Assembly: GCF_000219625.1 (NCBI RefSeq) | Contig: NC_018211.1 | Coordinates: forward strand, 1,798,001 to 1,862,000 | DNA length: 64,000 bases | Reading direction: 5' to 3' | DNA from: Zymoseptoria tritici IPO323 | Taxonomy: Eukaryota > Ascomycota > Dothideomycetes > Mycosphaerellales > Mycosphaerellaceae | In this document: piece by piece, positions 10,477 to 60,379 of the stretch | Numbering within the stretch: position 1 is the stretch's first letter | Layout: each line of letters opens with the position of its first letter | The notes under the pieces: model-generated | Told to the model about the DNA's origin: nothing | What the model saw: only the letters and a program-made list of their open reading frames with translations | The model's database searches: none | Position numbers and translations under genes: made by a program

Positions 10477-13031
10477 GCGCAAGTAGCTCCCTAAACATCT
10501 AAAGAGTAGCTTTATTCGCCGCTCGACATCCTCGGCGGGCGCGCTAATCCTCTTCGCGAGGAAAAAGGATAATATACTCCGCCTCTATATCGACTACCGC
10601 GGCCTAAATACGGTTACGGTAAAGAACAGGGGGGGTCTTCCCCTAATTTCCGAGTTAATAGACTAGCTAGCCGGCGCTAGGTACTTTACGAAGATAGACC
10701 TCCGCTACGCGTACTACCGTGTCCGTATCTAGGAAGGCGACGAGTAGAAGATAGCCTTCCGGACTAGATACGGCTATTTCGAATATACCGTAATGCCCTT
10801 CGGGCTCTACAATACCCCTGCGGTGTTCTAAAACTTTATTAATAGCGTATTAGTAGGGCTAATCGACGTGTCCTACGTCGTTTACCTCGACGACATCCTT
10901 ATATACTCTAAAACGGTAGGGGAGCACGAGGGCTACGTCCGGGAGGTGCTAGAGCGCCTCCGGAAACATAAGTTATACGCTAACTTATCTAAGTACAATT
11001 TCTATAAGGACCGCGTCGACTACCTCGGGTACGTTATTATACGTAATAGGCTAGAGATCGACCTAGAACGGGTTAGATCGGTTTAGGAGTAGCTACTTCC
11101 CTAGTTAATATATAATATTAGGGTCTTTATCGGCTTCGCAAACTACTATAGGCGCTTTATTAAGGGTTTCTTACGCCTCGCTACGGCACTTAACCGCTAT
11201 ACGGAGGGGAAAAAGGTAGTAAATTAACGTAAGAAGGAACGAGCGTACTTAGAGCTCGACGAGTAAGCTATGCTTTCCTTTAACGAATTACGGAAAAGGT
11301 TCTCGGAAGCTCCTATCCTACGCTATTTTAACCTAGAACTACCCTATAGGGTAGAAACCGACGCCTTAGGCGAGGCAATCTCGGGCATCCTAAGCTAACT
11401 ATACGAAGACTACGGCAAAACGTAGTAGTTCCCTATATTATACTTCTTACGAAAGATAATCGCGGTAGAACGGAACTACGTTACGGAAGACGCTAAGCTA
11501 TTAGTAGTCGTAGACTCCTTTACGCACTTTAGATAATACCTAGAAGGAGCTCGATACTAGGTTAAACTACTAACGGATTATACAAACCTACAAACTCTTA
11601 TAACGACTAAGACCTTATCTAGGCGGTAGGTTAGATAGGCCGAGTAGTTATCGCAGATCGACTTTAGGACTATTTATAGACCCGGCAAGGCTAATAGGGC
11701 GGCGGATGTACTAAGTAGAAGGCCCGACCTAACAGACAAGGACTACTCTAGACGGTAGGCTACAGACGAAGAGTCGTCTATAAGCTTACGGCTCTTCTAG
11801 ACGGCATTCTAACCGCATCTAGACTATAATAGATTAGTAAGGCACGTAGGGGTAGTAAAGGACGCCCTAGACCTAAAAACGCGCCTAAAACGCGCCCTCT
11901 TAAAAGATCCGATCTTTAATAGGATTAACGAGGTAAAGGACTAAGCGGAACCTACTTTCTAGGTAGATCGATAGACTAACGAGGATAGAGTCGCGTATAT
12001 AGACGGTAAGGCCTACGTACCTAAAGGAAGTATAAGACTCTAACTGCTCTAAGAATGCTACGACGACCCTATAGTAGGGCACTTCGGCTTCTCTCGAACG
12101 CTCGAACTTCTACAAAGGAGTTTCTACTAGCCTAAAATAAGGAAATACGTTAAGGACTACATACGAACGTATTAAGTATATAGTAGGTTAAAGCTACGGC
12201 GGCACAAACCTTACGGATTATTGTACGCAGAGCTACTATCGCTTACACTATAGGAGGATGTAACGCTAGACTTTATAACGGACCTGCTACCTAGTATGCT
12301 TCTAGGCTAGGCTTACGACTTAATCCTAGTAATCGTAGACAGATGCACTAAAATAGTCTATTATGCGCTATATAAGAAGACGATTACCGTAGTAGAGCTC
12401 GTAGAGGTGTTTATAAGGGAAGTCGTACGACTCTATAGCGCACTAGCTACGATTACGTCGGATCGAGGGCCTATCCTAACCTTAAAATTCTAGAGTACGT
12501 TCTGTTTCTGCCTTAGCATACGCCGAAAACTAAGCATAGCGTTCTACCCTTAAACAGACGGGCAAATAGAGCGCTAAAACCAGACGCTAGAATAGTATCT
12601 TCGCATATACTATAACTATAAACAGGATAACTAGGCCTCCCTACTTTCTACTGCGGAATTCTCGTATAATAATAGCGTACACTCCGTAATAGGGGTTACG
12701 CTATTCTAGGCGTATACTATACGGGACCCTCGACGGTGCTACTAGCCTAGACTACGCTAGAATAGACGAGAAGCCCTATTCGCTGCACAACTTGCGGACC
12801 GCGTTATCTCTAACTAGAAGAAACTACGGGTTAGACTAGCTAAAACAAAGAAGCAAATAGCTAAGTAGGCGAACGAGCATAGGAAGGATATCTCCTTTAA
12901 CGTCGGAGACGAAGTCTACCTTAACATACGTAACATTAGGTTATTAAGACCTTCGGCGAAGCTCGATTACAAATATATTAGACCTTATAAGGTAAAAGCG
13001 GTTATTAACCGCGTCGCATATACGCTCGATC
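10477..13031 (+). pseudogene. Gypsy element B pol: RT, RNase H, integrase, up to the SINE
   Basis: Continuation of the element B polyprotein after element C. Reverse transcriptase is easy to read ([15 protein letters not shown] near 10,585) with an intact YLDD box near 10,885. RNase H follows, with a TLSRR-type end by about 11,740. The integrase core shows LDFITDLLPS near 12,268, VIVDRCTK near 12,330 and ITSDRG near 12,455. The frame then reaches the C-terminal integrase part (FNVGDEVYL near 12,900) and is cut by the SINE inserted after 13,031. Stops are RIP-type. Confidence 0.87.
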
Positions 13032-13111
13032 GGTCGGCGACGAGGAACACCTGTACGTGGTGCCGGCTACGAACCTACGACGACATCGTCGTCGTAGACC
13101 TAAGTTTCCTC
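13032..13111 (+). ncRNA. HDV-like self-cleaving ribozyme, SINE copy 1
   Basis: It has the same layout as the copy at 18,655 with two visible changes. The third base of P1 is T instead of C, which still pairs as a G-U wobble. The J4/2 strand reads CCTAAG instead of GCCAAG. P2 (GAGGAA with TTCCTC), P3 (ACC with GGT) and the P4 hairpin are unchanged. Activity is inferred. Confidence 0.65.
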
Positions 13112-13876
13112 CGGAGGATTGGAGAGGCCGTCGATCCCTCTTCCCTTACAAAAACAACACGACCTGGAGGTACACCTCCCCTCGAAACACAAGCTACAGA
13201 ACAACAGCACGATTCGAACGAATAGCTCTCTACGCTACGAACAAGAAGAAGAAGAAGAAGAAGAGGCAGTCTACTCTGTCCTATACGCGCACCTCCTCGA
13301 AATCCGAATCGAAATCGTATGTCCCTTCTCTAGTAGAGACGTCGTTGCCCTCGAAAGGAAGCATACATGCACTTTAAAGAGCTAGAACTCGGTAGAATCT
13401 ACAACTCTGCGATCAACCTGCGTAGCTGTATACGTTTAGAAGCGGCATACAGTTCTACAAAGGCATATTAAGGACAAGAGAAGACAGCGGGTTAGATAGC
13501 TGCTTGCGTAGCTGCTTGCGCAGCTACGTCGCTCCTGCACTGCTTTTTGCACTGCAATGCATTTCCTCTCTCTTTCGAATTCGCAGCGTGCGTACGAAGC
13601 GGAAGGATCCGCTGAAAATTCTGCAAAAAGCTTGGCGCGAAAATTCTGCAGCCTTAGGCCGCAGCAACACTTGTTTGATTTCCTTTGTCTCGCATTTGTT
13701 TAAAGTCCTTTAGCATTGCCTTAGGCACGGGGTTTCCCCTAAGGTTAAAGAATACCGAAGAATTTGATTATAAATAGATCTACTGCCTTGCCCTTAGGGC
13801 AAGGCCGTCCTACATAGTCTTAGACTCCGAAAGGACGTAAATGGAACAAACAAACAAACAAACAAACAAACAACAA
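13032..13876 (+). mobile_element. SINE copy 1, with HDV-like ribozyme head and (CAAA)n tail
   Basis: A non-autonomous retroposon of 845 bp inside element B pol. It is flanked by the 13-bp duplication tatacgctcgatc (13,019-13,031 and 13,877-13,889) and ends in a CAAA tail. Its head begins GGTCGGC and folds like those at 18,655 and 41,987. The 3' part (about 13,700-13,850) matches the LINE end at 33,375-33,530. The sequence still holds many CA and TG dinucleotides while its host has few, so it probably arrived after RIP of element B. The short ORFs in it (for example 13,057-13,377) have no coding character that I can see. Confidence 0.88.
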
Positions 13877-13889
13877 TATACGCTCGATC

Positions 13890-18185: not shown

Positions 18186-18654
18186 TACTCCCGCCGCCCC
18201 GGTATCGACGACGACTTACTAACCTTTTCCTATACGCCTTCCGAATACGTATCTATACTCCTTACTTCCTATTTCCCTATTTGCGATACTAAGCTATATA
18301 TCGCTATTACGATATCTTCTAATAATACTCCTAATAACGGCCCGGACGGACCCTCCCGTCGTAGCTATCTTAATACTCCCTCGGAGATTCTCCGTAATAC
18401 CCTAAGTACCGGCGAGGCTTCCGGAACTAATAGCCCTATCTAGGTACCTTCTAATGCTCGCGCCTTCCGCGATAGTAATAGGATTCTAGTAGCTCGCTTT
18501 GCGACTAATTCGACTAAAGGGTCGACTAATAAGGCTCTCCCTTAAGCCGAAGGGATTGCTACTATAGCGACCTATAGTATAGTTCCCGCTCCCTAGCCTA
18601 CTAATATAAACATCGCAGATCTTGTTACTACCCTTACTATAGCTACTTATAATA

Positions 18655-18734
18655 GGCCGGCGACGAGGAACACCTGTACGTGGTGCCGGCTACGAACCTA
18701 CGACGACATCGTCGTCGTAGAGCCAAGTTTCCTC
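18655..18734 (+). ncRNA. HDV-like self-cleaving ribozyme, SINE copy 2
   Basis: The first 80 nt fold as the nested double pseudoknot of HDV-like ribozymes. P1 pairs 18,655-18,661 (GGCCGGC) with 18,685-18,691 (GCCGGCT), including the usual G-U first pair. P2 pairs 18,665-18,670 with 18,729-18,734 (GAGGAA, TTCCTC). P3 is 3 bp (18,672-18,674 with 18,682-18,684) closing a 7-nt L3 loop. A P1.1 of GT in L3 with AC after P1 is possible. P4 is a perfect 10-bp hairpin (18,698-18,720). J4/2 reads AGCCAAGT, where 18,723 is the likely catalytic cytosine. Cleavage would fall just before 18,655, the exact element boundary set by the TSD. Activity is inferred from structure. Confidence 0.82.
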
Positions 18735-19104
18735 CGGAGGATTGGAGAGGCCGTCGATCCCTCTTCCCTTACAAAAACAACACGACCTGGAGGTACACCT
18801 CCCCTCGAAACACAAGCTACAACAGAACAACAGCACGATTCAAACGAATAGCCCTCTACGTTACGAACGAGAAGAAGCAGTCTACTCTGCCCTATACGCG
18901 TACCTCCTCGAAATCCGAATCGAAATCGCATGTCCCTTCTCTAGAGACTTCGTCGCCCTCGAAGGAAGTATACATGCACTTTAAAGAGCTGGAACTCGGT
19001 GGAATCTACAACTCTGCGATTAACCTACGTTGTCGTAGATAGAACTACTACTACGATACTACAAAGGCATATTAAGGACAAGAGAAGGCAGCGAGTTAGA
19101 CAGC

Positions 19105-19178
19105 TGCTTTTGTAGTGCTTTTGCACGGCATTTTGCACTGCTTTTGCACGGCATTTTGCACTGCTTTTGCACTGCATT
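19105..19178 (+). repeat. Minisatellite inside SINE copy 2
   Basis: Repeats of a unit of about 23 bp built from CTTTTGCAC and GGCATTTTGCACTG. Copy 3 has fewer units, and copy 1 has only a degenerate trace. The number of repeats varies between SINE copies and partly explains their length differences. Confidence 0.7.
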
Positions 19179-21749
19179 TCGAATTCGCAGCGTGCGTGCG
19201 TGCGAAGCGGAAGGATCCGCTGAAAATTCTGCAAAAAGCTTGGCGCGAAAATTCTGCAGCCTTAGGCCGCAGCAACACTCGTTTGATTTCCTTTGTCTCG
19301 CATTTGTTTAAAGTCCTTTAGCATTGCCTTAGGCACGGGGTTTCCCCTAAGGTTAAAGAATACCGAAGAATTTGATTGTAAATAGATCTACTGCCTTGCC
19401 CTTAGGGCAAGGCCGTCCTACATAGTCTTGGACTCCGAAAGGACGTAAATGGAACAAACAAACAAACAAACAAACAAACAAGCTACTTATAATAATAGAG
19501 CCCCTACTTACCGTAGTCGCGTACCCTTCCCTAGAGAGCCTAGTGCTCTATCCTTCGACGGTAGGGATGCCTCGACTTTCTTCTAGACTATAGCCGACTT
19601 CTTCGATTCGTACTTTAAAGGATTACGTACTCCTAATAGGGAAAGGATCCGACTTACTACTTAACACTTAGTACCGGATGTTCGAGCTTAGCTCGAGAGT
19701 CTTTTAGGCTTCGACAGCGAAAACTACGAAGCTTTTAAGGAAGAGGCTCTTTCCTACTATCGGTACTATAATAGCTAGGTATATAAGTATAGCCTCCCTT
19801 TCCTCGAAGAGTTATACGTAAAGGAAAGAGTCTAGGATATCTCTAGATAGAAGGATAACCTACGTTAGTACGTTATAACGTTTAAAGCAGTCTCGAAAAG
19901 GATACCTCTTAAGTAGTATAACGAAGTCGCTCGATACTACCTCTTCCTTAAAGGCTTGCCCTCCGAGGTAGGGCAGGAAATTATAAATAAGCTCGAAGTA
20001 GACGTCTCGAACCTAGCCTCCTATACTTAGCTTCCTCTATTATACGATGCGACACTTAAGTACGTTATAAGCCGCATAGCTTACTAGGAGTTATACGGCA
20101 AGGGTAAGAGCTAGGTTACTAGCTAGCTTATTAACTAGACTAAGAAGAGGTATCCGAAGCTAGATATATTAAACAATAGAGTCTAGTCGTTACGCGTACT
20201 AAAAGAGAAGCTGCCGGACATAGAGGACCTGTCTAAAAAGCTTTCTAAGATAACTATTGCTAAGATTAAGCGTATAAGAGCTAAGAAAAGTATACGTATA
20301 GCTATTAATCTACCTAGAGACTTTCCGAAGTCTTATATAGCTACGCTATATACTAATAACATCCCTAATTCTCCCGAGTACTACTCGTACAATACTATTA
20401 GACCTAGACTAGTGCCTTATTAGTCGTCTAGTAGCTCGAACCCCTTCTACTAGGAAGCCTCTAAGTATATATGCTTTTATTACTTTAAACCCGGCTATAG
20501 TGTTTAAGAATATAAGTACATAAACTACCTCCTAAGTGCGGGCTAGACATACCGCGATAGTAAAAAGAAGTAGTATATCGGACGAGAAGGTAATGTTAAT
20601 AGACGAAAGGTGTAGTTTAGGAACTAGCCGGATTAGCCTAAGCTCCGGATAATAGCTCCCGCTATCGAGAAAGCATAGGGAAGGGCTATTACTTAGCCTA
20701 CCGATGCAAATCTCGAGGATGCTAAGAAGTACTAGCTAGCTTATAAACTACCTATAGCTACCTTTGCTCCTCGGATACGTATACCGAGTATACCTCTTAA
20801 CCCGGCACTTGTTCCTAGCCCTGTTCTACCGACCTTAAAATTAGCACCCTCGTTACTAGCTTAACCTAGTTACCTAGGCTAAGGCTTAGGTCCCCCTATA
20901 GGACCCGTACTAGCGACGAACATAAATAGAAACTAGTGCAATATCGTTGCTAGAAGTACGGTTCCTAATAATCTAGTATATATTAATAAGCGAGACCCTC
21001 GTGCCCCCTATATAAATTAGATCCGTACTAACTCTCTATCTACGAGCGCTGCGACTAGGCTAACGAGTACGACTAAGGGAAAGGAGCTAGCCGCTAAGCC
21101 GAGTAATAATACTAGCCGTGTTATAAAGCTAAAGAAGATAGTGTCTATTAAGATCGATGCCCGTAAGATCCCTAATATAGAAGAGTATATAAAGGTAGTC
21201 GAAGAAGGCTCGTAGTCGATATAGGGCACTCTTACTAGTAATAGTACATTTAATACCGGTAACTAGCCGTAGTCCGCAAACGATAGCTAGACCTAGGACC
21301 CTACTAGAAGTATAGATCTAGATCCTACCCCTCCTTCTTAGGGCTTCGTTAACCCCCCGCTACTAAAGAAAAAGAAGAACTAGAAGCCTACTACGACTAG
21401 AAAGGGTGCGTAGAGAAGGGATATTTACCTTCGAGAGCGGCTTAATATAGAAAAAGTACTACTCGACAGGATACTAGCGTAGCCGTCTAATATCCCTATT
21501 AGGGAGCTTCTCGCTACCTTGCCTATAGTAGCTAGGGGACTTCTTAAGCGCTATGCTCGGAACTAAGAAGACTTCGTAATAGCTACTAAGGAAGCCGGGC
21601 TATCGATTATCGTTAAGGAGGACAATATTACTACTACTATAGCATACTAGTACGATATAGACGAGCCGCTTCGTTCTTACGGGGTACGAGTCGAGTTTAA
21701 ACTTAGTAGTGCTACCGCTAAGCACATCCTGCCCTCTAGATTCTATATA

Positions 21750-27054: not shown

Positions 27055-27116
27055 GCTTCGAAACGATACGAGCGCACCGAGCGCATATAACATACCTTAA
27101 TAACGAGCGCAACTAC

Positions 27117-27540
27117 ATCGACATCCGCACTTCCATTGCACACCCAATATTGACCTGATTATTACCAAACACGCACTATTCGAAAGCCCTTATCAAGGCC
27201 GTTCCAACGAACCCGCATTCACCCCGCTGCCCTTAAAACCTACGCCGCTACTAGAGTTCAAAGATTCACCTTGTTGCCCCCTTTGGGGTGCAAATTTTCT
27301 AAACTCCGGGATTTGGCCCCCACCTCCGAAACCTTATTCCGACCTTACCTCCCCTACACTCGGAATATTCCCTGTTTAGGGTATTGCATAAGAAAGGTTT
27401 ATAACCTATACTACAACACTTTAACACACTATAACACAACTAATACGCCGCCGATTCGGACGCCGTGTAGCCTGTTTAAAAGCCCTCGACGAGAGCTTTT
27501 ATTCTAGCTATTAAACGCCTGATTTAGTCGAATTTTAAAA
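27117..27540 (+). other. 5' region of the LINE, little touched by RIP
   Basis: CA and TG dinucleotides are frequent here (for example at 27,130-27,180 and 27,270-27,300), unlike the DNA on both sides. There is no coding frame I would trust: the 78-residue ORF at 27,271-27,507 is low complexity. It could be a LINE 5' UTR unique to this copy or a captured sequence. I see no HDV-like ribozyme here. Confidence 0.5.
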
Positions 27541-29110
27541 GAGCCAAAGGCTAAACAAGAGCAGTGTTCCTAGGATATATAAACATATATATACACATAT
27601 ACTTAGTTCTCTCTATACTAGAGTTACTAGTTGTCCTACGCCGCCGAGAGAGGAAGCTAAAGGAGCAGTATAGTTTAGTAAGGACAAATTTGCACCTCTA
27701 GGGATTAGAGTAGTAGTACTAGCTATATAGCTAGATACTCTATATAGAGTATAGGCCTACCTTTCCCTAGAGACAAAGGTTGTCCCGAACCTGCTACGAC
27801 TACCTGTAGAACGCCTTTAAAGCCTGCTATAAAGACGCACGTTACTGCAGGCTAGAGTACTTCCTAGAAGCAGAGGTATATTTATATATCTCTTCTCTCC
27901 TCTTTAAAGTATACCTTCTCCTATACTCCTACTTTATATAGTAGGGAGAAGAGTGCCCTAGTGTCGTAAGTAGGCTAGGACCCGAACGCGATTAGAAATA
28001 GAGACGAATAAGCAGCCCTCTCGGCGTAAGACTGCTAAGCCTCTTTTTAAATAACAATAACAACAACAAGACAATGTCTACCGAGACGGAAATAACAGAC
28101 GCAGGTACCCCTCAGACTCTAAAAGCTACAGCTAGAGGGGACGAGGAAGTTACATTTAAGTCTCTTAAAACCCTGCCGTCGCCGAAGGAATTACTAAAAA
28201 GAACCGGCATTCCTTTCCTACCTAGGAAAAGGCAAAACCCCTTCGAATTTAGTAGCTCCCCGACTCGTAGCCCTTCTCTCGGAAAGAAACAAACACTCTC
28301 TCGCACGCCCGCGAACGAGAAGATCCTACAAGCCCGACAGCTACTAGTCGAAGCGGCGGGGGATCTAGGCGGGTTTCTAGAAGAACAAACCCGGGTTCTC
28401 GACCTTCTTAAAGTCTTTCGGCACTTTACCGAGCGTATAGACTTTAGGACAACGTCCCAAATCCTCGCAAAGCAAGTCTCGAACCTAGAAACGATAATAA
28501 AGAAACTAGCAGTATAGGCGAAGAAGCCTACTTTCGCAGACGTTATTAAGGGAGATAGCGGATCCGCTACCTCTACCTCTACCTCCTCGACAATAAAGAC
28601 AATATAACAATAATAACAACAATAATAACAATAGTAGACGACCGTCTTCCGGAGGGCTAGTAAGCTAAAAGAACAAGTAGAACCGATGCCTCTTATCCTT
28701 GTACTAAAGGATAAAGAGAAGGAACTCGACTAGATTACAACCCGAGACAAAATTAACGACGCTCTTAAAGGCGAAGACTAAGAGCTAGCTGTCCTTACGA
28801 TAAAGAAATTATTTCGGGGTAATATTGTCCTAAACTTTGCAACAGAGAAAGCCCGCTAACGAACAATCGATAGCCTTACTAAGGTTACTAATATTGTAGG
28901 CGAGGCATAGGTAATAGAGGACTCTCTCTAGCATAAGGTCGTAGTCTACAGCGTCTCGACCGCGAACTTTAACACGCTAACGGGCCTACAGGACATTTAA
29001 CAAGAAATTAAGACCTTTAATAGAGGTCTTAAACTCGTAAGTACCCCGATTTAGCTAACAAACGAAGAGAGAAGAAGGACTCTTACTAGGGCGACAGTTC
29101 TAGTAGGTTT

Positions 29111-29954
29111 GTTTGTTTGTTTGTTTGTTTTGTTTGTTTGTTCCATTTACGTCCTTTCGGAGTCCAAGACTATGTAGGACGGCTTTGCCATAAAGGCAAA
29201 GCAGTAGATCTAGTTACAATCAAATTCTTTCGGTATTCTTTGACCTTAGGGGAAACCCCGTGCCTAAGGCAGGACCTACAAGCAGAATCTGCCGAAGGAC
29301 TTTAAAACAGCGCAAGACAAAGGAAATCAAACGAGTGTCGTTGTCTGCAGCCGGGGCTGCAGAATTTTCGCGCCAAGCTTTTTGCAGAATTTTCAGCGGA
29401 TCCTTCCGCTTCGCACGCACGCTGCAAATTCGAATTCGAAATGCAGTGCAAAAGCAGTACAAAATGCCGTGCAAAAGCAGTGCAAAATGCCGCGCAAAAG
29501 CACTGCATAAGCAGCTGTCTAACTCGCTGCCTTCTCTTATCCTTAATATGCCTTTGTAGTATCGTAGTAGCAGTTCTATCTACGACAACGTAGGTTAATC
29601 GCAGAGTTATAGATTCTACCGAGTTCCAGCTCTTTAAAGTGCATATATGCTTCCTTTCGAGGGCAACGAAGTCTTTAGAGAAGGGACATGCGATTTCGAT
29701 TCGGATTTTAAGGAGGTGCGCGTATAGGGCAGAGTGGACTGCTTCTTTCTTCTTCTCGTTCGTAGCGTAGAGGGCTATTCGTTCGAATCGTGCTATTGTT
29801 CTGTTGTAGCTCGTGTTTCGAGGCAGATTTCGAGAAGGATTTCGGGCGGATTTCGAGAGGTTTTCGAGGAGGTTTCTTCCAGACTGTCTTGGTTTCCCTT
29901 CCGAGGAAGGTACTTACGACGGCCACCGCGTGAAGGTGCAGTCTGTTCGGCCGT
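29111..29954 (-). mobile_element. SINE copy 4, reverse orientation, inside the LINE
   Basis: This copy lies on the minus strand with its tail at the left (TTTG repeats from about 29,107) and head at 29,954. The duplication cagttctagtaggttt flanks it (29,095-29,110 and 29,955-29,970); its left limit is blurred by the tail. The middle and 3' part match the other copies, but roughly the first 140 nt differ and carry a different version of the ribozyme. It interrupts ORF1 of the LINE that shares its 3' end. It still contains many CA/TG dinucleotides. Confidence 0.88.
29880..29954 (-). ncRNA. HDV-like self-cleaving ribozyme, variant head of SINE copy 4
   Basis: Sequence differs from the other heads but the fold is the same. 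P1 pairs ACGGCC (from 29,954) with GGCCGT. P2 is 7 bp, CAGACTG (29,945-29,939) with CAGTCTG (29,886-29,880). P3 is ACC with GGT, closing a 7-nt L3 (TTCACGC). P4 is CCTTCC-TC-GGAAGG (29,910-29,897). J4/2 reads GAAACCAAGA, keeping the CCAAG of copies 2 and 3. The 5' end again coincides with the TSD-defined start. P1.1 is less clear. Different stems pairing in the same places are strong support for a conserved structure; cleavage itself is inferred. Confidence 0.78.
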
Positions 29955-30109
29955 CAGTTCTAGTAGGTTTTGCTACTAAGGAGGAGGCAAAAAGGGCTAT
30001 TTAAAACCGTCTATACGTAGGTGCGGACAGCCTAAGAGTCGAGAAGGCGAAGGATCGTATATAATAGAAAGGGAGGCCCCTAGAACGTTTTATATGTTAG
30101 AACACTCTC

Positions 30110-33100
30110 TACGGATCTTCTACGTTAATCTTAACTAATCTATTAAGGCTACAGAGTCTACCTTAGACGTCGCGGTTAAGCAGAACGCTGACCTTCTACT
30201 AGTCTAGGAACCGTAGACTATAGAAGACCCGATAACAGGCTACAAAGAGACAAGATCTATCGCATACCGGGAGTACAACCAGCTATTCCTAACGACTACG
30301 GATTCGACGATCCGGCTAAGAACAATGCTATATATTAGCACAAGACTTAATGTTAATATCTCTCCTATTTTATTAGACGATAGTAACATACTTTCCTTTA
30401 TTATTTTAGACAAGAAGGGCAATAAGATCTAGATAGTTAATCTTTATAACGAGAAGGACCTTCGGGATACCGAGAACCCGCAAAACCGACGAATAACAGA
30501 GAGAAGCCTCTACTCTCTACGCAACACGTTCCTTCTAAACACTCTACTAGTAGGAGACTTTAACCTTAAATACCTGTCCTAGGATCTAAGGGGAAAGGAT
30601 ACTACTAGTGCCCGCGAATTTATAGAGTGGATAGAAGACTAGGGCTTTACTCTACGTAATACGATAGGTGTCGGGACCTTCTATAGGCCGCACCTAGACG
30701 CAGAGTCGGTCCTAGACCTTACGTTTACAAGAGGATCCTTATCTACGAAAGAAATCGACTAGAGAACGATTCCGACAGGCTTAGACTATAAGGCTATATC
30801 TATAGACCTTACTAGCGCGCAAGATCGAGCCTAACAGAAGAAAGTAGTTCTAGATATAGCTTCCGCAGATTAGGAACTGTTTACAGATCTCCTAATAAGC
30901 AAGGCGACGTCTATTAACTATACGAACTCCCTCGACGATATCGCAGACTCCTTTACCTCGTATATTACCGAATCGATGCGGGGAGCAATCCTAGAGAAAG
31001 TAGTACACGCCTACGCAAAACCTTAGTAGAATAGAGAGCTATGCACGCTACGCTGTATAATATCTAGAACATATAGACAGATCTTTACCTGCGGACGCAC
31101 GCCGACGCTAGACGAGAAAGAGGCGTATACGAAAGCGAGAAACGAGTACTTCTAAGCTATTAAAACAGCTAAGAAGAACTACTAGAACGCTTTCCTCGAA
31201 AAAGAAGACTCGAAATCTATCTTTAAAGCTATGTCCTATACTAGGAATAGCAGCCGAAGATAGATACCTATAATAAATAATAAAGATTCTTTCGAGGGGA
31301 AATGTAAGGCCTTCTCCGAAGCCTTATTTCCGCGCCCTCCTGCCGAGGAACCTCTACCTAGCCGTTAGGAAGCGTATACAGCCGGGGATTAGGGCTGGAC
31401 TACGCTAACCGAAGAGGAACTCGCTGCCGCCTATAGTACAAAGATAGTAAAAGGAAAAACGCCGGGCCTAGATAGTATTACGCAAGCTATTATTAGTAAA
31501 GTATATGGCGCTATTCCTATTACCTTTCTACGTATATACAGGAGGCTACTCGACAAAGGACACTACCCCCGATACTAGAAAGTTGCGACAGGCGCAGTTC
31601 TAGCAAAGCCGGGAAAACTAGACTATTCGGTCCCTAAGGCCTACTAAGTTATCTCTCTCCTAAACTACCTTAGTAAGATTAGCGAGAGAATACTCGCAAA
31701 ACGCCTAGGGATTATCGCAGAGACGAAGCCCCTTCTACACGACTCGCAGTTAGGAGGGCGAAAGAAGAAATCGGCTATTAATACGGTACTTCTCTTAACA
31801 AACGAAATCGAGGAGAATTAAAGAAAGAAAAAGAAGACTTCGGTTATCTTCCTCGACGTAAGAGGAGTATACGACTACATTACAAAGAACCGACTGTTAA
31901 AAATAATAATCTAGTTAAGGCTTCCGCATAGCCTTATACGTTAGGTTCAGTCGTTTATAAGCAATAGACGCTTACGAATAGTATTCGACGGACAGATATA
32001 GGAATTCTAGGACGTAGAGATCGGCGTTCCGCAAGGCAGCCTAATATCTCCTATCCTCTTTCTTATCTATACGCGCGACATATTCTTCTCGCTATAAGGA
32101 GTTACTCCTAGTTCCTACGTCGACGATATTAGACTATCTACCTCGTCTACGTCCCTTAAGAAGAACTCTAAGGTACTAAAATATAAGGCAAGAAGGCTAA
32201 TAGACCTAGGAAAGAAGAACTTAATTACTTTCGACCTAGCAAAGACAAACCTAGTACACTTCTCGAAAGGGAAAGGGTCCGATTGCCCGGTAATTCTTCT
32301 AAATAGCGATATTATTCGCCCGGCAAAGAAAGCGATAAGGTAGCTTAGGATTTAGCTAGACGCCGGTCTTACCTTTAAGGAGCATATTATAATAAGATCG
32401 GCACAAGCACAAGCGGCATTTTATCGATTAGAAAGACTAGCAAATACCGAACGCGGTTTATCTTCTATATCGTTAAGAAAGATCTACCTAGCCTACGTTA
32501 CTACAATAGCAGACTACGGGGCCCCGGTTTAGTAGCGGTCGAAAAAGAGCATAAAACCTCTAGTATCTCTATAAAGTAAAGCTTGTAGAAAGATCCTAGG
32601 CGTTTTCCGTACCGCCCTAAACGTCCCGTCCGAAGTAGAGTTAAATCTCTTCCCCCTAGATCTACGCCTAGAGAGATAGTTAATTTTATACTCTCTACGC
32701 GTAGCAAAGCTACCTAAAAACTACCCTATAAGACTCGCTATCTAAAGCGCGCCTTCGGATACGCGAGAAGTCCGATACGAGGACTTAAGAGAGATACTTC
32801 CGCAAAAACGATAGAGAACACAGATATAACTACTCTATTATCGACTCCGACAATATAAGCATTTCGTAGAACACGAGAGGGCTAACTACGCAAAAGACGA
32901 TCTCTTTAGCGTCTAGAAAACCCGATACGAAATAGCAAGACAACGGGAGATTAACAAGGTACCTAGGAATACAAATAGCTACCTTAGTCGATTTCTATAG
33001 AGCTCGCTAGGAAAACATAGAATAGGAGGAAGACACGCTTTAACTAGTGCCTTCTATACTATCCTATTAGGATACGGATACCTAAAGTCCTATCTCTATC

Positions 33101-33330
33101 GCTTTAGATACGTAACGACGCTAGACTGCCCTTACGGACGACGAGAAACAGCAGAACACCTCGTATGTAGCTGCCCTATCTACGATGTATTTAGGCTACT
33201 ACCGCTACGACAAGCACAATCTCTACTAGAAATAGTAGAAGATAAGGAACTCCGGAAACACCTTACTACCTTTCTCTCGGATATAAAGATTGCTTCTAGG
33301 TCCTAGTACCTAGCAAGAGGCGAAGACGAG
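30110..33330 (+). pseudogene. LINE ORF2: AP-endonuclease, reverse transcriptase, C-terminal Cys/His motif
   Basis: An endonuclease-like N-terminus is visible (ADLLLV.EP near 30,190; LVGDFNLKY near 30,550; LDYKAISIDL near 30,785). Reverse transcriptase follows: GKTPGLDSIT near 31,455, FLDVRGVYD near 31,850, GVPQGSLISPILF near 32,025 and the catalytic box YVDD near 32,120. Near 33,130 the C-terminal motif CPYGRRETAEHLVCSCPIY matches the zinc-finger-like end of Tad-type ORF2 proteins. In-frame TAG/TAA codons of RIP type break it. The protein would nick the target and prime reverse transcription from RNA 3' ends. Confidence 0.88.
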
Positions 33331-33374
33331 ACCGTCTAGCCTACACTCCTTTTACTTTTCCTTATTTGTCTTTC

Positions 33375-33550
33375 TTTAAAGTCCTTCGATACTAGCTAGC
33401 TACTATCCTAGGCACAGGTCTTTCCCTAAGGTTAAGAGATACGAGAGAACAACGATTGTACATAGATAGACTGCTGTCGCGAGACAGCCGTCCTACATAG
33501 TCATAGACTCCTACAGGACGTAAATAGAACAAACAAACAAACAAACAAAC
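33375..33550 (+). repeat. LINE 3' end shared with the SINE family
   Basis: It aligns with the last 170 nt or so of all SINE copies: TAAAGTCCTT, a GGCACRGGKYTTYCCCTAAGG block, a hairpin, GCCGTCCTACATAGTC, GGACGTAAATRGAACAAAC, then CAAA repeats. The hairpin stem differs in sequence (CTGTCGCGAGACAG here, TTGCCCTTAGGGCAA in the SINE) but pairs in both. That fits an RNA structure recognised by the LINE reverse transcriptase. Confidence 0.85.
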
Positions 33551-40217: not shown

Positions 40218-41980
40218 TGCCAAAACGCGTCCGCTAAGCCCTACAGAGGCAATATGATCGCGATAAGGCATTAGTAACGCGTGTTTGTAACCTATACTAC
40301 GCCTTCGTCGCGAAGGAGGCACGTAAGCCTAACCTCTTAGCGCTCTACTGAGAGCACAAGGCTACTTATATCTACGAGCGGATTACTAAGCGACTAAAAG
40401 GGCGTAGTACGCTCTACGAACGACCGATAAACTACTACAACCTAGACGAGTCTTAGGATAAGGCACTAGCTACTTACTACCGCGAGCGCGACCGTATAGC
40501 TATGTTCCTTCCGGTCCCTATAATTGCACGAGTCGGCGAGGACATAATTAACCGTACGAGATCCGATACTTAGCGTCGAACGCTCTTTCTACCGTATCGG
40601 TTTATAGCGAGGTATAAGCTAAAGAAGGTAAGGAGCAAGAGCATCGAGTTATAGCGTAAAGAGGCTTACTAGCCTAAGGCGATAAGAGCGTAGTTTAAAG
40701 GATACAACGCGATACTTAAGGAGTATAGAATTAAGCCTACTAATACGTAGAACTTCGACGAGACTAGCTATAGGATTAGCATCGGAGGTAGTAAATAGGT
40801 AGTTACAATAGATACGAAGAGAAGGGCATAGTTAGCTAATAACCTTAATCGCTAGTATATTATAGTCGTAGAGACTATAAGCGCCTTTAGCTATATAATA
40901 GATCTATACCTTATTGCTAGTAGCAAGGTAATCTAAGAGAAGTAGTTTAAAGGGTTTCCGGACGATAGTAATGCCTCTATTAGCATTACCGAGAGCGGTT
41001 ATATAAACGACGAACGAGCTATAGACTACATTAAGTATTTCGAGGAGCTAACACGCCCTTAGAATCTAGTAGAATAGCGGCTCTTGCTCTATAACAACTA
41101 CGGCTCTTATACGTTTAAGGAGCTAATCGTATATGCCTTAGAGCATAGGATCGAACTCTATAGACTTCTACCGCATACCTCTTATTTTATATAGCCGCTC
41201 GATGTTGTGCTCTTTTAGCCCTTTAAACACTACTATCGAGAAGCGGTAATTAATACTATAAGGAGCGGCTATAGTAAGTTTATAATTGCTTAGTTTATCG
41301 AGGCTCTTACCGACATTAGAAGTAAGACATTTACGACTTATAACGTCCGTAAGGCCTTTAAGAGCAGCGGCATAATGCTAGTTAACATAGAGGTTCCTTA
41401 TAGCTTCCTTCGTAAGAGATATAGCACCGAGGATAAAGAGTATCGACTAAGAATAGAAGAGCTAGTTAATAAGGAGTACTAGCATTAGAAGACTGCTAAG
41501 GACGATATAGATATATAGCTTAATACTACCGACAATAGTAGGGCATATAATAGACCTAACTACCGCGAGTAGACGGTCGACGACGCACTAAACGATATTA
41601 GTACGCCGCTACGTACACCGACTCTAGAGCTTCCTACTACGACATTAACTGTCTTATAGACACCGCGCTTACTCTACGACTAATTTACCGCCTTTAAGAA
41701 GCGACGACTCTATCGGCAAGAGCACGACGAGCTTCTATTTAGCTTATTACCGACGCGGCAACTTATCGCCGCGATTAAGACGTCTACTAAGGTATAAGTA
41801 TATAAAGGAGCAGAATTCAAGAGCGCGTTTAGTTAGACTAAGGCGGCTTAGAGAGTAATATAACGCTCGAAGGCGCAACCGAATCGCTACCTTAAGGGTA
41901 GCTTAATTAAGGCGTCTGCCGTACGAGCGATATAGAAGTAACGCGATACTAACAAGGTAGCAATAGCGCGGTTAACGCTA
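40218..41980 (+). pseudogene. Fot1/pogo-type transposase, degenerate
   Basis: The ATG at 40,218 (MPKRVR) is kept, then RIP stops accumulate. The first part has helix-turn-helix character (KPNLLALY, YIYERITKR). The DDE_1 core is clear: the first D in NFDETSYRI near 40,750, the second region degraded from DNHGSH to YNNYGSYTF near 41,093, and the PPHT-type end reading LLPHTSYFI.PLDVVLF near 41,170 followed by FKHYYREAV. The C-terminal part is charged. It would catalyse cut-and-paste transposition into TA sites; the second catalytic D is now N and the frame is broken, so this copy is inactive. Confidence 0.82.
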
Positions 41981-41986
41981 TAATAC

Positions 41987-42066
41987 GGCCGGCGACGAGG
42001 AACACCTGTACGTGGTGCCGGCTACGAACCTACGACGACATCGTCGTCGTAGAGCCAAGTTTCCTC
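41987..42066 (+). ncRNA. HDV-like self-cleaving ribozyme, SINE copy 3
   Basis: As far as I can read, the same as the copy at 18,655 in all pairing elements (P1 GGCCGGC with GCCGGCT, P2 GAGGAA with TTCCTC, the P4 hairpin, and J4/2 AGCCAAGT). The 5' end coincides with the end of the target duplication. Confidence 0.8.
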
Positions 42067-42795
42067 CGGAGGATTGGAGAGGCCGTCGATCCCTCTTCCC
42101 TTACAAAAACAATACGACCTGGAGGTACACCTCCCCTCGAAATACAAGCTACAACAGAACAACAGCACGATTCGAACGAATAGCCCTCTACGTTACGAAC
42201 GAGAAGAAGCAGTCCACTCTGCCCTATACGCGCACCTCCTCGAAATCCGAATCGAAATCGCATGTCCCTTCTCTAGAGACTTCGTCGCCCTCGAAGGAAG
42301 CATATATGCACTTTAAAGAGCTGGAACTCGGTAGAATCCACAACTCTGCGATTAACCTGCGTTGTCGTAGATAGAACTGCTACTACGATACTACAAAGGC
42401 ATATTAAGGATAAGAGAAGGCAGCGAGTTAGACAGCTGCTTTTGTAGTGCTTTTGCACGGCATTTTGCACTGCTTTTGCACTGCATTTCGAATTCGCAGC
42501 GTGCGTGCGTGCGAAGCGGAAGGATCCGCTGAAAATTCTGCAAAAAGCTTAGCGCGAAAATTCTATAGCCTTAGGCCGCAGCAACACTCGTTTGATTTCC
42601 TTTGTCTCGCATTTGTTTAAAGTCCTTTAGCATTGCCTTAGGCACGGGGTTTCCCCTAAGGTCAAAGAATATCGAAGAATTTAATTGTAAATAGATCTAC
42701 TGCCTTGCCCTTAGGGCAAGGCTGTCCTACATAGTCTTGGACTCCGAAAGGACGTAAATGGAACAAACAAAAAAAACAAACAAACAAACAAACAA
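41987..42795 (+). mobile_element. SINE copy 3, in the Fot1-like element
   Basis: 809 bp flanked by the 14-bp duplication taacgctataatac (41,973-41,986 and 42,796-42,809). The head begins GGCCGGC exactly after the duplication. It is nearly identical to copy 2 but has fewer units in the internal minisatellite and an impure tail (one run of A where CAAA is expected near 42,770). The presence of the same SINE in LTR, LINE and DNA transposons shows there is no strong preference for one host element. Confidence 0.9.
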
Positions 42796-42799
42796 TAAC

Positions 42800-43660
42800 G
42801 CTATAATACGAGACTCGTGTTGCTTACGAGCGCTAGATCCGCTATACGAAGAAGAAACGCGGTAAACTAAGGGTTGTATTTAGAGGTAGGGGTAAGACTA
42901 AACCTCCGGTGTTGTAGGCTCTTTACGCTCTCGAGATTAAGAGTAAGGCGACGGCGGCATTTACTATCTACGTAGACGGTAAAGACAGGCGGTGTAGACC
43001 GAATATAGACTCCTTATGTCGGTGGAGTAGACTAACAACAACACTACTACCTTAGCGGCGTATATTTAAGCTGCCCTTACTCGTATAGCGCGAGCTCGAT
43101 GCTAACGAGAGCCTTAAGACGACAGGCGATCCGGACTCTAGAGCTAACGCCGGACGCTTACTCGTAAAGCTAGTACTATTATATTAACGTATAGAGGATA
43201 AAGTAGACGGCGTTATAACGACGACATAGCTCGTTAACGAGAGCGTAGTAGCACTACCGAGCAGAGCTAATATAAGCTATCGATATAGGCTCGAGCCGGA
43301 CGACCGACACTACGAGGAAGAAGCACCGCTACTTAGTAAACAAGCGTTTAAGGAGGTATATCTATTAATCCTATAATAACCTTAACGAGCGGTAAAGGCT
43401 CTACGACGATTATAAGCCTTACAATTATAGGGCTCGCAACAACGAGACTTATAGTTAGCTATAGTATCACTAGCACCCTTACGAGCGTCCTTACAACCGT
43501 CCTTACTACTACCGGTGCTACACATTAGACTGGATCCTCGGCTGTTCGACTAAGAACGACTACGCACATCTCTTACTCGCGCAAACGACTCGCACAGAGG
43601 CTAGAAACGCCAAAACCGGTGTCAAACGGTCGACTAATAAGAAGGTAGAGAATACTATGT
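42800..43660 (+). pseudogene. Second degenerate coding stretch of the Fot1-like element
   Basis: After the SINE a frame with RIP stops continues (KKKRGKLRVVFRGRGKTKPP, FTIYVDGKDRRCRPNID, SLCRWSRLTTTLLP) to about 43,660, where RIP ends. It may be the C-terminal part of the transposase protein or a separate ORF. The frame changes more than once and I cannot identify a domain. Confidence 0.4.
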
Positions 43661-58071: not shown

Positions 58072-60379
58072 ATGGATAGGCAATCTACGTATACCCTCAG
58101 TCTGTTCGGCGAGAGCAATGGAGACGGCGATTCCAGCAACAAGCAAATTCAGAAAGAGCTCGTTGCGTTTGTACTGGACTTTCACCTGGACAATGTCTTC
58201 ATCTACCGGTATGGGCAAGAAAGAGCGGCACAGGTTTGGACAATGCTGACTCCGTCGCAGAGATCAAATCAGAGAAAATGTGCTGTCAAAGCAGTACTAC
58301 TGCGACATCGACATCGCCCACCTCATAGCATACAATGAAGAGCTGGCGAACAAGCTGAACAACGAGCCGGGTGATATGATCCCTATCGTGAGGACAACCG
58401 ACCTGATCGCCGGAGCACAGCAACCCTAACACATCATCTCACAGTTCGAAGCGGCTCTCAAAACATGCACACAACGCATCCTCTACCCATCACGCAGCGA
58501 AGAAGACCTCCGACTCGCCAAAGCTCTCCCCGAGCACCAACTCCTTATTCACTCCTCCGTCTCGCAAACCTCAATCCGCGGGCTCACTGCGACCAACGTT
58601 TCCCACCTCGTTCGAATTCCCGGCATCGTCATCGGCGCCAGCACACTCAGCTCAAAGGCAACGAGCATCCACATGCAATGCAGAAACTGCCAGCACGAAC
58701 AAAACATGCCCATCACATCTGGCTTCACAGGAATGTCGTTACCACGAACTTGCGGGAGAATGAAGGGCCCAGAAGATGGCGAAAAGTGTCCCCTCGACCC
58801 ATACTTTGTCGTACACGAGAAGTCACAATTCATCGACCAGCAAGTGCTGAAGCTGCAGGAGGCGCCGGATGATGTGCCTGTTGGTGAACTCCCAAGACAC
58901 ATTCTCGTCAGCGCGGATCGATATCTTGCAAACCGAGTGGTCCCGGGTACAAGATGTGTGGTAATGGGAGTATTCAGCATCTACAACAACCAGAAGAACA
59001 ATAAAGGCGGCGCAGTCGCCATCAGAAACCCATACCTTCGAGCAGTCGGGCTACAGACAGACCGTTCGAGCAACCAGTCCAGCGGGATGGGCATTCAATT
59101 CAGCGAAGAGGAGGAGCAAGAGTTCCTGGAAATGTCTCGACGACCTGATCTCTACCAACTCTTCGCCGACTGTGTGGCACCATCAATTTACGGCAATGCG
59201 GACATCAAGAAAGCCATCACATGTCTGCTTATGGGCGGTAGTAAGAAGATTCTTCCCGACGGCATGAAGCTTCGCGGAGACATCAACGTTCTCCTCCTCG
59301 GTGATCCTGGAACAGCCAAATCCCAACTTCTCAAGTTCGTCGAAAAGTGCGCACCCATCGCGGTCTACACCTCTGGCAAAGGATCCTCAGCAGCCGGTCT
59401 TACGGCCTCCGTCCAACGCGACACCACAACCCGGGAGTTCTATCTCGAAGGTGGAGCTATGGTCCTTGCAGACGGCGGCGTAGTCTGCATCGACGAATTC
59501 GACAAGATGCGCGACGAAGACCGCGTCGCCATCCACGAAGCAATGGAACAACAAACCATCTCGATCGCCAAAGCCGGCATCACCACCATCCTCAACGCCC
59601 GCACATCCGTCCTCGCAGCCGCCAACCCCATCTTCGGCCGCTACGACGACCTCAAAACTCCGGGTGAGAACATCGACTTCCAAACCACCATCCTCTCCCG
59701 TTTCGACCTTATCTTCATCGTCCGCGACGACCACGACCGCAATCGCGACGAGACCATCGCCCGCCACGTCATGGGCATCCACATGGGCAACGCGGGCGTG
59801 ACAGCACAGACGACCGCCGAGATCCCCGTCGAGAAAATGAAACGCTACATCTCCTACGCCAAATCCCGCTGCGCGCCACGCCTGTCTCCCGAAGCGGCGG
59901 AGAAGCTCTCCTCTCACTTCGTTTCCATCCGTCGCCAAGTTGCCCGCGCCGAAGCGGACGCCAACCAACGCAGTTCCATCCCCATCACCGTCCGCCAACT
60001 CGAATCACTAATCCGTATCTCCGAGTCCCTCGCGAAGATAGAACTGCAACCCATAGCGACGGAGAAACACGTCGACGAAGCGATCCGGTTGTTCCTCGGA
60101 TCGACGATGGATGCCGTGATGAGTGCGGGCGGAGACACGAGTGCGTTGGGCATGGGCGGGAACCGCGAACTGGTGGAGGAAGTGCACAAAGTTGAGGAAG
60201 AGTTGAGAAGACGGCTGCCGATCGGGTATACGAGTAGTCTGGCTACGTTGCGGAGGGAGTTCGTGGAGAGAAAGGGGTATAGTGAGCAAGGCCTCAATCG
60301 GGCGTTGCAGGTTCTGTCAAGGCGGGAGAGTGTACAGTTTCGGAGAGGAGGGACGTTGGTTCATCGGAGTGGATACTAG
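58072..60379 (+). CDS. MCM5: MCM5, replicative helicase subunit
   Basis: Three exons: 58,072-58,208, 58,261-58,387 and 58,445-60,379; 732 residues, close to the 734 of human MCM5. Both introns are GT-AG (52 and 57 nt). The N-terminal domain carries a C4 zinc finger (Cys 167, 170, 191, 203). The AAA+ core shows Walker A GDPGTAKS (374-381), Walker B VCIDEFDK (435-442) and the arginine-finger motif SRFD (506-509). The C-terminus ends with a winged-helix-like region. Mcm5 is part of the Mcm2-7 ring that unwinds DNA at replication forks. The block [20 protein letters not shown] and the FIYRDQIREN junction confirm both splices. Confidence 0.95.

Follow-up and report, generated by a model that had tools for sequence, protein, structure and literature searches.

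Two unrelated HDV-like ribozyme heads on a dispersed SINE-like retroelement family of Zymoseptoria tritici

In Drosophila, the SIDEs, R2/R1 hybrids included, begin with an active HDV-like ribozyme and have the 3' end of a LINE (PMC3414825). The elements of Zymoseptoria tritici described here are likewise short and non-autonomous; they start exactly with an HDV-like ribozyme fold and share their 3' end with a LINE. As in the R2/R1 hybrids, which show 14-bp duplications at the R1 site, the ribozyme is foreign to the LINE that presumably mobilises them (PMC3414825). The Drosophila SIDEs, however, occupy fixed sites in the rDNA and derive from known LINEs, whereas the present family is dispersed and fungal, and has a long body and two unrelated heads. 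The Pr77 head of trypanosomatids is found both on LINEs and on short elements (L1Tc/NARTc, RIME, SIDER), and several of these heads were shown to cleave (PMC4035085). The Pr77 elements resemble ours in having an HDV-like ribozyme at the 5' end of short elements, but there the autonomous LINE has the same head, which is also a promoter, whereas the partner LINE here is without it (PMC4035085).

In fungi, 230 HDV variants from 26 species were described in 2017, and two of them cleave as two-piece constructs (PMC5640933). In these variants P2 and P3 are separated by an extra nucleotide, mostly C, and an E loop replaces part of P4; the paper describes their gene associations as widely variable, and its main text does not contain the stem "transpos" (PMC5640933). 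The extra P2-P3 nucleotide is also present in both heads described here, A and B. An E loop seems to be present in head B and is absent from head A, and the first pair, typically C-G in the published variants, is G-U in head A and G-C in head B (PMC5640933). The SINEs of Aspergillus fumigatus are also short fungal retroelements with target duplications, but they are tRNA- or 5S-related (PMC5063351), whereas ARAGORN found no tRNA in our window, the whole stretch of 64,000 nucleotides that was analysed. Hammerhead retrozymes are non-autonomous retroelements with a self-cleaving ribozyme too, but of another class, and are described as spreading via circular RNAs (PMC4918200, PMC7229834). The paper on the Z. 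tritici TE library has one SINE family, and the word "ribozyme" is absent from its main text.

The window contains three plus-strand copies with head A and one minus-strand copy with head B (Table 1). The first-pass annotation had placed the starts of the three plus-strand copies at the G that would follow an HDV-type cleavage site, and their target duplications bear this out, since each left duplication ends one base before this G (G1). One G is ambiguous in the duplication TAACGCTATAATAC. The minus-strand copy had gone unreported; the head at its own 5' end is unrelated in sequence but shares the fold. The bodies contain an 11/23-nt tandem array of the TTTTGCACTGC type (19104-19179, 29439-29514 and 42436-42488), which has several TTTT runs and varies in length between copies.

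Table 1. Features of the window (positions in the 64,000-nt stretch)
Feature	Position	Strand	Remarks
Head-A SINE-like element	18655-19480	+	826 nt, (AACA)n tail at end; target duplications
Left target duplication of this element, AGCTACTTATAATA	18641-18654	+	right copy 19481-19494
Second head-A copy	13032-13875	+	head 13032-13111; duplication ATATACGCTCGATC at 13018-13031 and 13876-13889
Third head-A copy	41987-42795	+	head 41987-42066; duplication TAACGCTATAATAC at 41973-41986 and 42796-42809
Fourth copy, with head B	29108-29955	-	duplication 29096-29107 and 29956-29967; descriptor match, empty site
3' region common to the element and the LINE 3' end	19275-19480	+	73-79% identity, up to about 200 nt
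Presumed partner LINE, one copy	27116-33549	+	split by the head-B element 29108-29955; blastn
MCM5 reading frame	58673-60379		100% identity over 568 aa to Zymoseptoria tritici protein
Head A, HDV-like ribozyme fold	18655-18734	+	pairs counted on heads; descriptor match; RF02682 lead from 18655
Head A P1	18655-18661/18685-18691	+	7 bp, G-U first pair
Head A P2	18665-18670/18729-18734	+	6 bp
Head A P3	18672-18674/18682-18684	+	3 bp, closes 7-nt L3
Head A L3	18675-18681	+	UGUACGU
Head A P1.1	18676-18677/18692-18693	+	two pairs
Head A P4	18698-18706/18712-18720	+	9 bp
Head A J4/2, CCAAG	18723-18727	+
Head B, second HDV-like ribozyme fold	29880-29955	-	descriptor; RF02682 and RF01787 leads; pair comparison; unrelated to head A in P1, P2 and P4

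Every part that had been assigned to the 80-nt head A, from the 7-bp P1 with its G-U first pair through P2, the 3-bp P3 with its 7-nt loop and P4 to the CCAAG of J4/2, is present, as are two P1.1 pairs that had not been named and a single C between P2 and P3. The positions that we take to define the HDV motif are the catalytic C and CNRA in J4/2 and the U and G at the ends of L3. All are occupied as expected: CNAAG stands before P2 in 95 of the 95 A heads found in the genome, the first U and the G of L3 are invariant, and head B has the same bases. A descriptor of the HDV fold, written before head B was read, was run on the window, 15 LINE loci and dinucleotide shuffles. A search with such a P1-P2-P3-P4 descriptor had been proposed as a check, and it recovered all three reported heads and one further match at 29955 (-); each of these four window matches is the 5' end of an element. 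The shuffles (8.7 Mb, both strands) gave 2 matches, neither of them with both P1.1 pairs.

No Rfam family reached its gathering score in the window. In a permissive scan, RF02682 (HDV-F-prausnitzii) was the best of 4227 families for head A (20.4 bits, E 0.097, cut-off 44), and the alignment covers the whole model from the first base of the element (18655). RF02682 was also best for head B (16.2 bits, E 0.4, cut-off 44), again over the whole model and from 29955, and drz-agam-1 was among the further leads at 13.8 bits, below its cut-off. Because 20.4 and 16.2 bits lie below 44, the heads are labelled "HDV-like" and are placed outside Rfam family membership. Whole-genome searches with RF02682 and RF00094 gave no match, but the control genomes were equally silent, so these negatives carry no weight either way. 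Plain folding, which cannot show pseudoknots, gave a low energy for head A (z -3.1) and an unremarkable one for head B (z -1.8; 11 of 200 shuffles fold at least as well). The covariance model R2, built from head A, recovers the three A heads of the window and misses head B; head B is therefore supported by the descriptor match, the Rfam leads below threshold and the comparison of the two heads.

In head B, P1 is GACGGCC...GGCCGUC with a G-C first pair and P2 is CAGACUG...CAGUCUG. P3 is the same as in head A, L3 is UUCACGC, P4 is short and J4/2 has CCAAG. One of the two P1.1 pairs is present, and a single C separates P2 and P3 when P2 is taken as 7 bp. The AGUA before and GAA after P4 presumably form the E-loop motif, which head A lacks. 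Over the 16 pairs of P1, P2 and P3, the two heads differ by seven two-sided changes, all in P1 and P2, and one one-sided change; eight pairs are the same and none is broken. The 13 P1 and P2 pairs of head B were retained in 1 of 2,000,000 shuffles. When two elements of the window were compared by blastn, no likeness was seen before nt 149 of A and 133 of B, and 89% identity thereafter. Since the likeness starts only behind the heads, one body carries two ribozyme modules. The presence of a second, unrelated head with the same predicted fold is independent support for the HDV-like reading.

The genome (39,686,251 bases in 21 contigs) was searched with a 35-nt pattern taken from head-A positions 11-45 only, allowing up to three mismatches. 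It matched at 95 places, of which 66 are exact and the other 29 have a single mismatch, and the reversed control gave none. All 95 starts were read. Genome-wide copies with 5' ends away from the predicted base had been named as the outcome that would speak against the ribozyme; G1 is the start in 94 of the 95. The exception, L047, has lost about two bases, judged by its target duplication. A 35-nt body pattern matched at 94 places and head A lay 75, 81 or 83 nt upstream of every one (94 of 94), so the head count is not a product of choosing intact heads. The SINE near-body follows 94 of the 95 A heads. In the last, L103 (G000:C7:2580265-2581515), head A runs straight into an inverted SINE 3' end, an inversion of twin-priming-like appearance. 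One head-A copy, L020 (G000:C9:18738-19920), lies within telomere-type (ACCCTA)n about 19 kb into contig 9.

A 35-nt pattern of head B matched at 172 places, and together the two types amount to about 267 heads. The flank gives way to GACGGCC at 36 of 36 B junctions (16 heads with flanks and 20 further junctions). Because the search for the 16 used their first 13 bases, and the 20 were picked up by a match beginning at base 1, the evidence for the B 5' end is that the flanks differ. Twenty-one B places, including that of the window, are identical over 120 nt, and the spread of B is therefore recent. A body motif occurs at 213 places; among the 100 listed, 58 coincide with no place in the A list or among the 40 scored B places, and the 15 of these 58 that were fetched all carry head B. 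A generic core pattern matched at 258 places (control 1; 100 of the 258 listed), about the sum of A and B, which makes a third large head type with this core unlikely. Two generic-core matches, at G000:C2:750942-751000 and C4:2467654-2467711, have a spacing unlike that of either head.

Target duplications, counted when 10 nt or more were repeated behind the A/C-rich tail, were found in 52 of 60 long head-A copies and not in the other 8. Their length is 13-14 nt in 47 of the 52. The left duplication ends one base before G1 in 50 of 52, with one to three shared bases allowed where the target itself reads G, GG or GGC; the two exceptions are L047 and a copy in telomere repeats, where the boundary is undefined. 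Empty sites were examined in two nested cases. When the LINE flanks of the head-B element of the window are joined and one 12-nt duplication is removed, the result matches 14 LINE copies with no gap across the joint; the first G is ambiguous because the target also reads G. For L022, which lies inside another SINE, the empty site is gap-free over 83 nt against one SINE copy; against another there are 11 gaps. The target supplies the G at the 5' junction in 20 of 51 head-A copies, somewhat more than a quarter. This count leaves out the telomere copy and the copies without duplication, and L047 is not among the 20. The excess is perhaps a small microhomology effect.

With good confidence, we regard this as a non-autonomous SINE-like family that joins a self-cleaving HDV-like 5' module to a 3' module like that of an APE-type LINE and is freed from read-through RNA. 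The sequences themselves show the fold and its constraint, the exact 5' ends, the 3' end common with the LINE and the two types of head; from these we infer cleavage, read-through transcription and use of the LINE machinery, in the following order: i) the element, most likely having no Pol III promoter, would be transcribed inside longer read-through RNAs; ii) the ribozyme would fold during synthesis and cut just 5' of G1; iii) cleavage would release an RNA with a defined 5'-OH end; iv) the LINE protein would recognise the shared 3' end and the (AACA)n tail and copy the RNA into a nicked target; and v) reverse transcription would reach the cut end, giving full-length copies that start at G1 between 13-14 nt duplications. 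Such an element can probably cut its own start from any RNA that runs through it.

The 3' module resembles the end of a LINE family. The last 150-200 nt of the SINE-like element are 73-79% identical to the 3' end of this family, the last ~60 nt are nearly the same, and both have the AACA tail. By blastn, a LINE copy matches the window in two pieces, 91.7% and 94.0% identical. In one copy, ORF2 (1142 aa) has APE endonuclease and RT domains and no RNase H, which many relatives carry; the named relatives are fungal (Sclerotinia, Monilinia). An APE-type LINE that shares its 3' end with the SINE-like element is likely its partner. The suggestion of mobilisation by a Tad-like LINE thus stands as far as a LINE partner is concerned, while "Tad-like" is a provisional label based on the APE and RT domains and the fungal relatives. 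A second, unrelated LINE-like RT family is represented by L070 and L074 (G000:C9:12500-18900 and C17:38400-44800), about 96% alike, and one of its copies directly precedes the telomere-repeat SINE of contig 9. Many genomic RT matches with a 480-nt footprint have in-frame stops, mostly TAG, as would arise from C-to-T change of CAG (RIP-like).

The partner LINE starts with CATCGACATCC. It was considered as the carrier of the ribozyme and rejected for the copies read: none of the 13 copies whose start was read has an HDV-like head, and one LINE 5' end that was scanned against Rfam gave no match. These data bear on the origin of the heads. Their source might be an autonomous LINE, now lost or located elsewhere, that had this ribozyme too, and the element would be its internally deleted derivative or hybrid, that is, a SIDE. 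The R2/R1 hybrids of Drosophila, which combine the ribozyme of R2 with the 3' end of R1, set a precedent (PMC3414825). Here, however, the 13 LINE copies all begin with another sequence, the descriptor finds no match in the 15 LINE loci, no A head other than that of L103, which is joined to an inverted SINE 3' end, lies off the SINE near-body, and the generic-core count, with 100 of its 258 places listed, leaves little beyond A and B. As for the two ends of a SIDE, the 3' end is common with a LINE, and the 5' end is common with no autonomous LINE among the 13 LINE 5' ends. We consider this origin unlikely, though worth keeping in mind; it is compatible with our favoured explanation because it concerns where the element came from and not how it works.

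The first-pass annotation had called the element a SINE that could do without an internal promoter. The B box is matched at best with one mismatch (A 546, B 540). The A-box consensus is matched with one mismatch at A 403, B 3 and B 395, and exactly at B 766, downstream of the B-box position. None of the A-box-like matches lies ahead of a B box at the usual spacing. TTTT runs, six in each of the two elements, would be apt to terminate Pol III transcription. The A/B-box search thus recognised no Pol III promoter in elements A and B, and the statement on the promoter holds for the Pol III boxes, which were the scope of that search. Because no Pol III promoter was recognised and because of the TTTT runs, the element is termed SINE-like and not a strict SINE: it is short, has target duplications and shares its 3' end with a LINE, and the internal Pol III promoter is the property of a SINE that it does not show.

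A promoter might nevertheless act from the head. The ribozyme would then be real, but the 5' end would be set mainly by an internal promoter at G1, and cleavage would be secondary or would trim upstream starts. A start site at G1 would yield the same 5' ends, and Pr77 is described as a promoter in DNA and a ribozyme in RNA (PMC4035085). Against this, the constraint on the heads follows the bases and pairs of the ribozyme, and heads A and B share almost nothing else; nor was a Pol III promoter recognised. The junctions within this one genome also differ. LINE 5' junctions with a duplication are sloppy, with 1-13 extra bases in 5 of 11, whereas those of the SINE are exact, the telomere copy being the single one of 52 with any extra bases (Fisher p 3.6e-4). 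The difference is in keeping with a SINE-like RNA whose end is defined by a cut, and a promoter-set 5' end is improbable.

The constraint is seen within the A copies themselves. Across 60 copies, head positions 1-45 differ pairwise by 0.018 on average and positions 67-80 by 0.037, compared with 0.138 in both P4 and body positions 81-600. The catalytic core is almost invariant, with about one eighth of the diversity of the body in the same copies, while P4 and the body drift. Among the 95 A heads, variation is found in P4 with its loop, at the N of CNRA, at the last pyrimidine of L3, at one base of J1/2, at a C/U that faces G in P1, and at column 28 in P3; changes at columns 1, 22 and 68 are rare. 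Two P4 pairs, 46-64 and 48-62, show two-sided changes, and a subfamily of 19 copies has a P4 of 6 bp, not 9 bp. Both P1.1 pairs are present in 94 of 95 heads, one head breaking a P1.1 pair; the third P3 pair is broken in 7 of 95, and single P4 pairs are broken in single heads. Covariation among the first 15 distinct heads is weak, with one two-sided pair change that 316 of 500 shuffles match. The argument is carried by the 95-head table, the comparison of A with B and the diversity profile.

The few heads with a broken pair could be taken to mean that the heads are decayed ribozymes carried along as mere passengers. The low diversity of the core relative to the body, the CNAAG that is intact in all A heads and the recent spread of the identical B places argue against decay, and we hold this very improbable. 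A chance hairpin at the start of an ordinary SINE, for which the Rfam scores below the cut-offs might be cited, deserves practically no credence when 64 kb of window gave twice as many descriptor matches as 8.7 Mb of shuffles, all at element 5' ends, and two unrelated heads have one fold.

The first-pass annotation had also considered a fungal SINE headed by an HDV-like ribozyme to be out of the ordinary. We found no earlier report of one in the open PMC literature, that is, apart from subscription papers and preprints. The claim survives for a fungal ribozyme-headed SINE-like family, and it is narrowed in that fungal HDV-like ribozymes and ribozyme-headed short retroelements were both already published. 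What is new, as read from the genome, is a dispersed fungal SINE-like family with two apparently exchangeable HDV-like heads and a presumed partner LINE without one.

Returning to the self-cleaving 5' module, a bolder extension is quite possible, though we advance it tentatively. With two unrelated heads on one body and a LINE without ribozyme, the family may have traded its own promoter for a swappable self-cleaving 5' cassette, and the scattered fungal HDV-like ribozymes already published, with gene associations that seemed random, may largely be such heads. The ribozyme here appears separated from the autonomous partner. Because one genome provides about 267 heads of two types together with a LINE as control, the setting of retroelement 5' ends by ribozymes becomes directly testable. 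The family also suggests a possible role for orphan fungal HDV-like ribozymes, and a short element of this kind could use any transcribed site as a source for its spread and would need no Pol III promoter.
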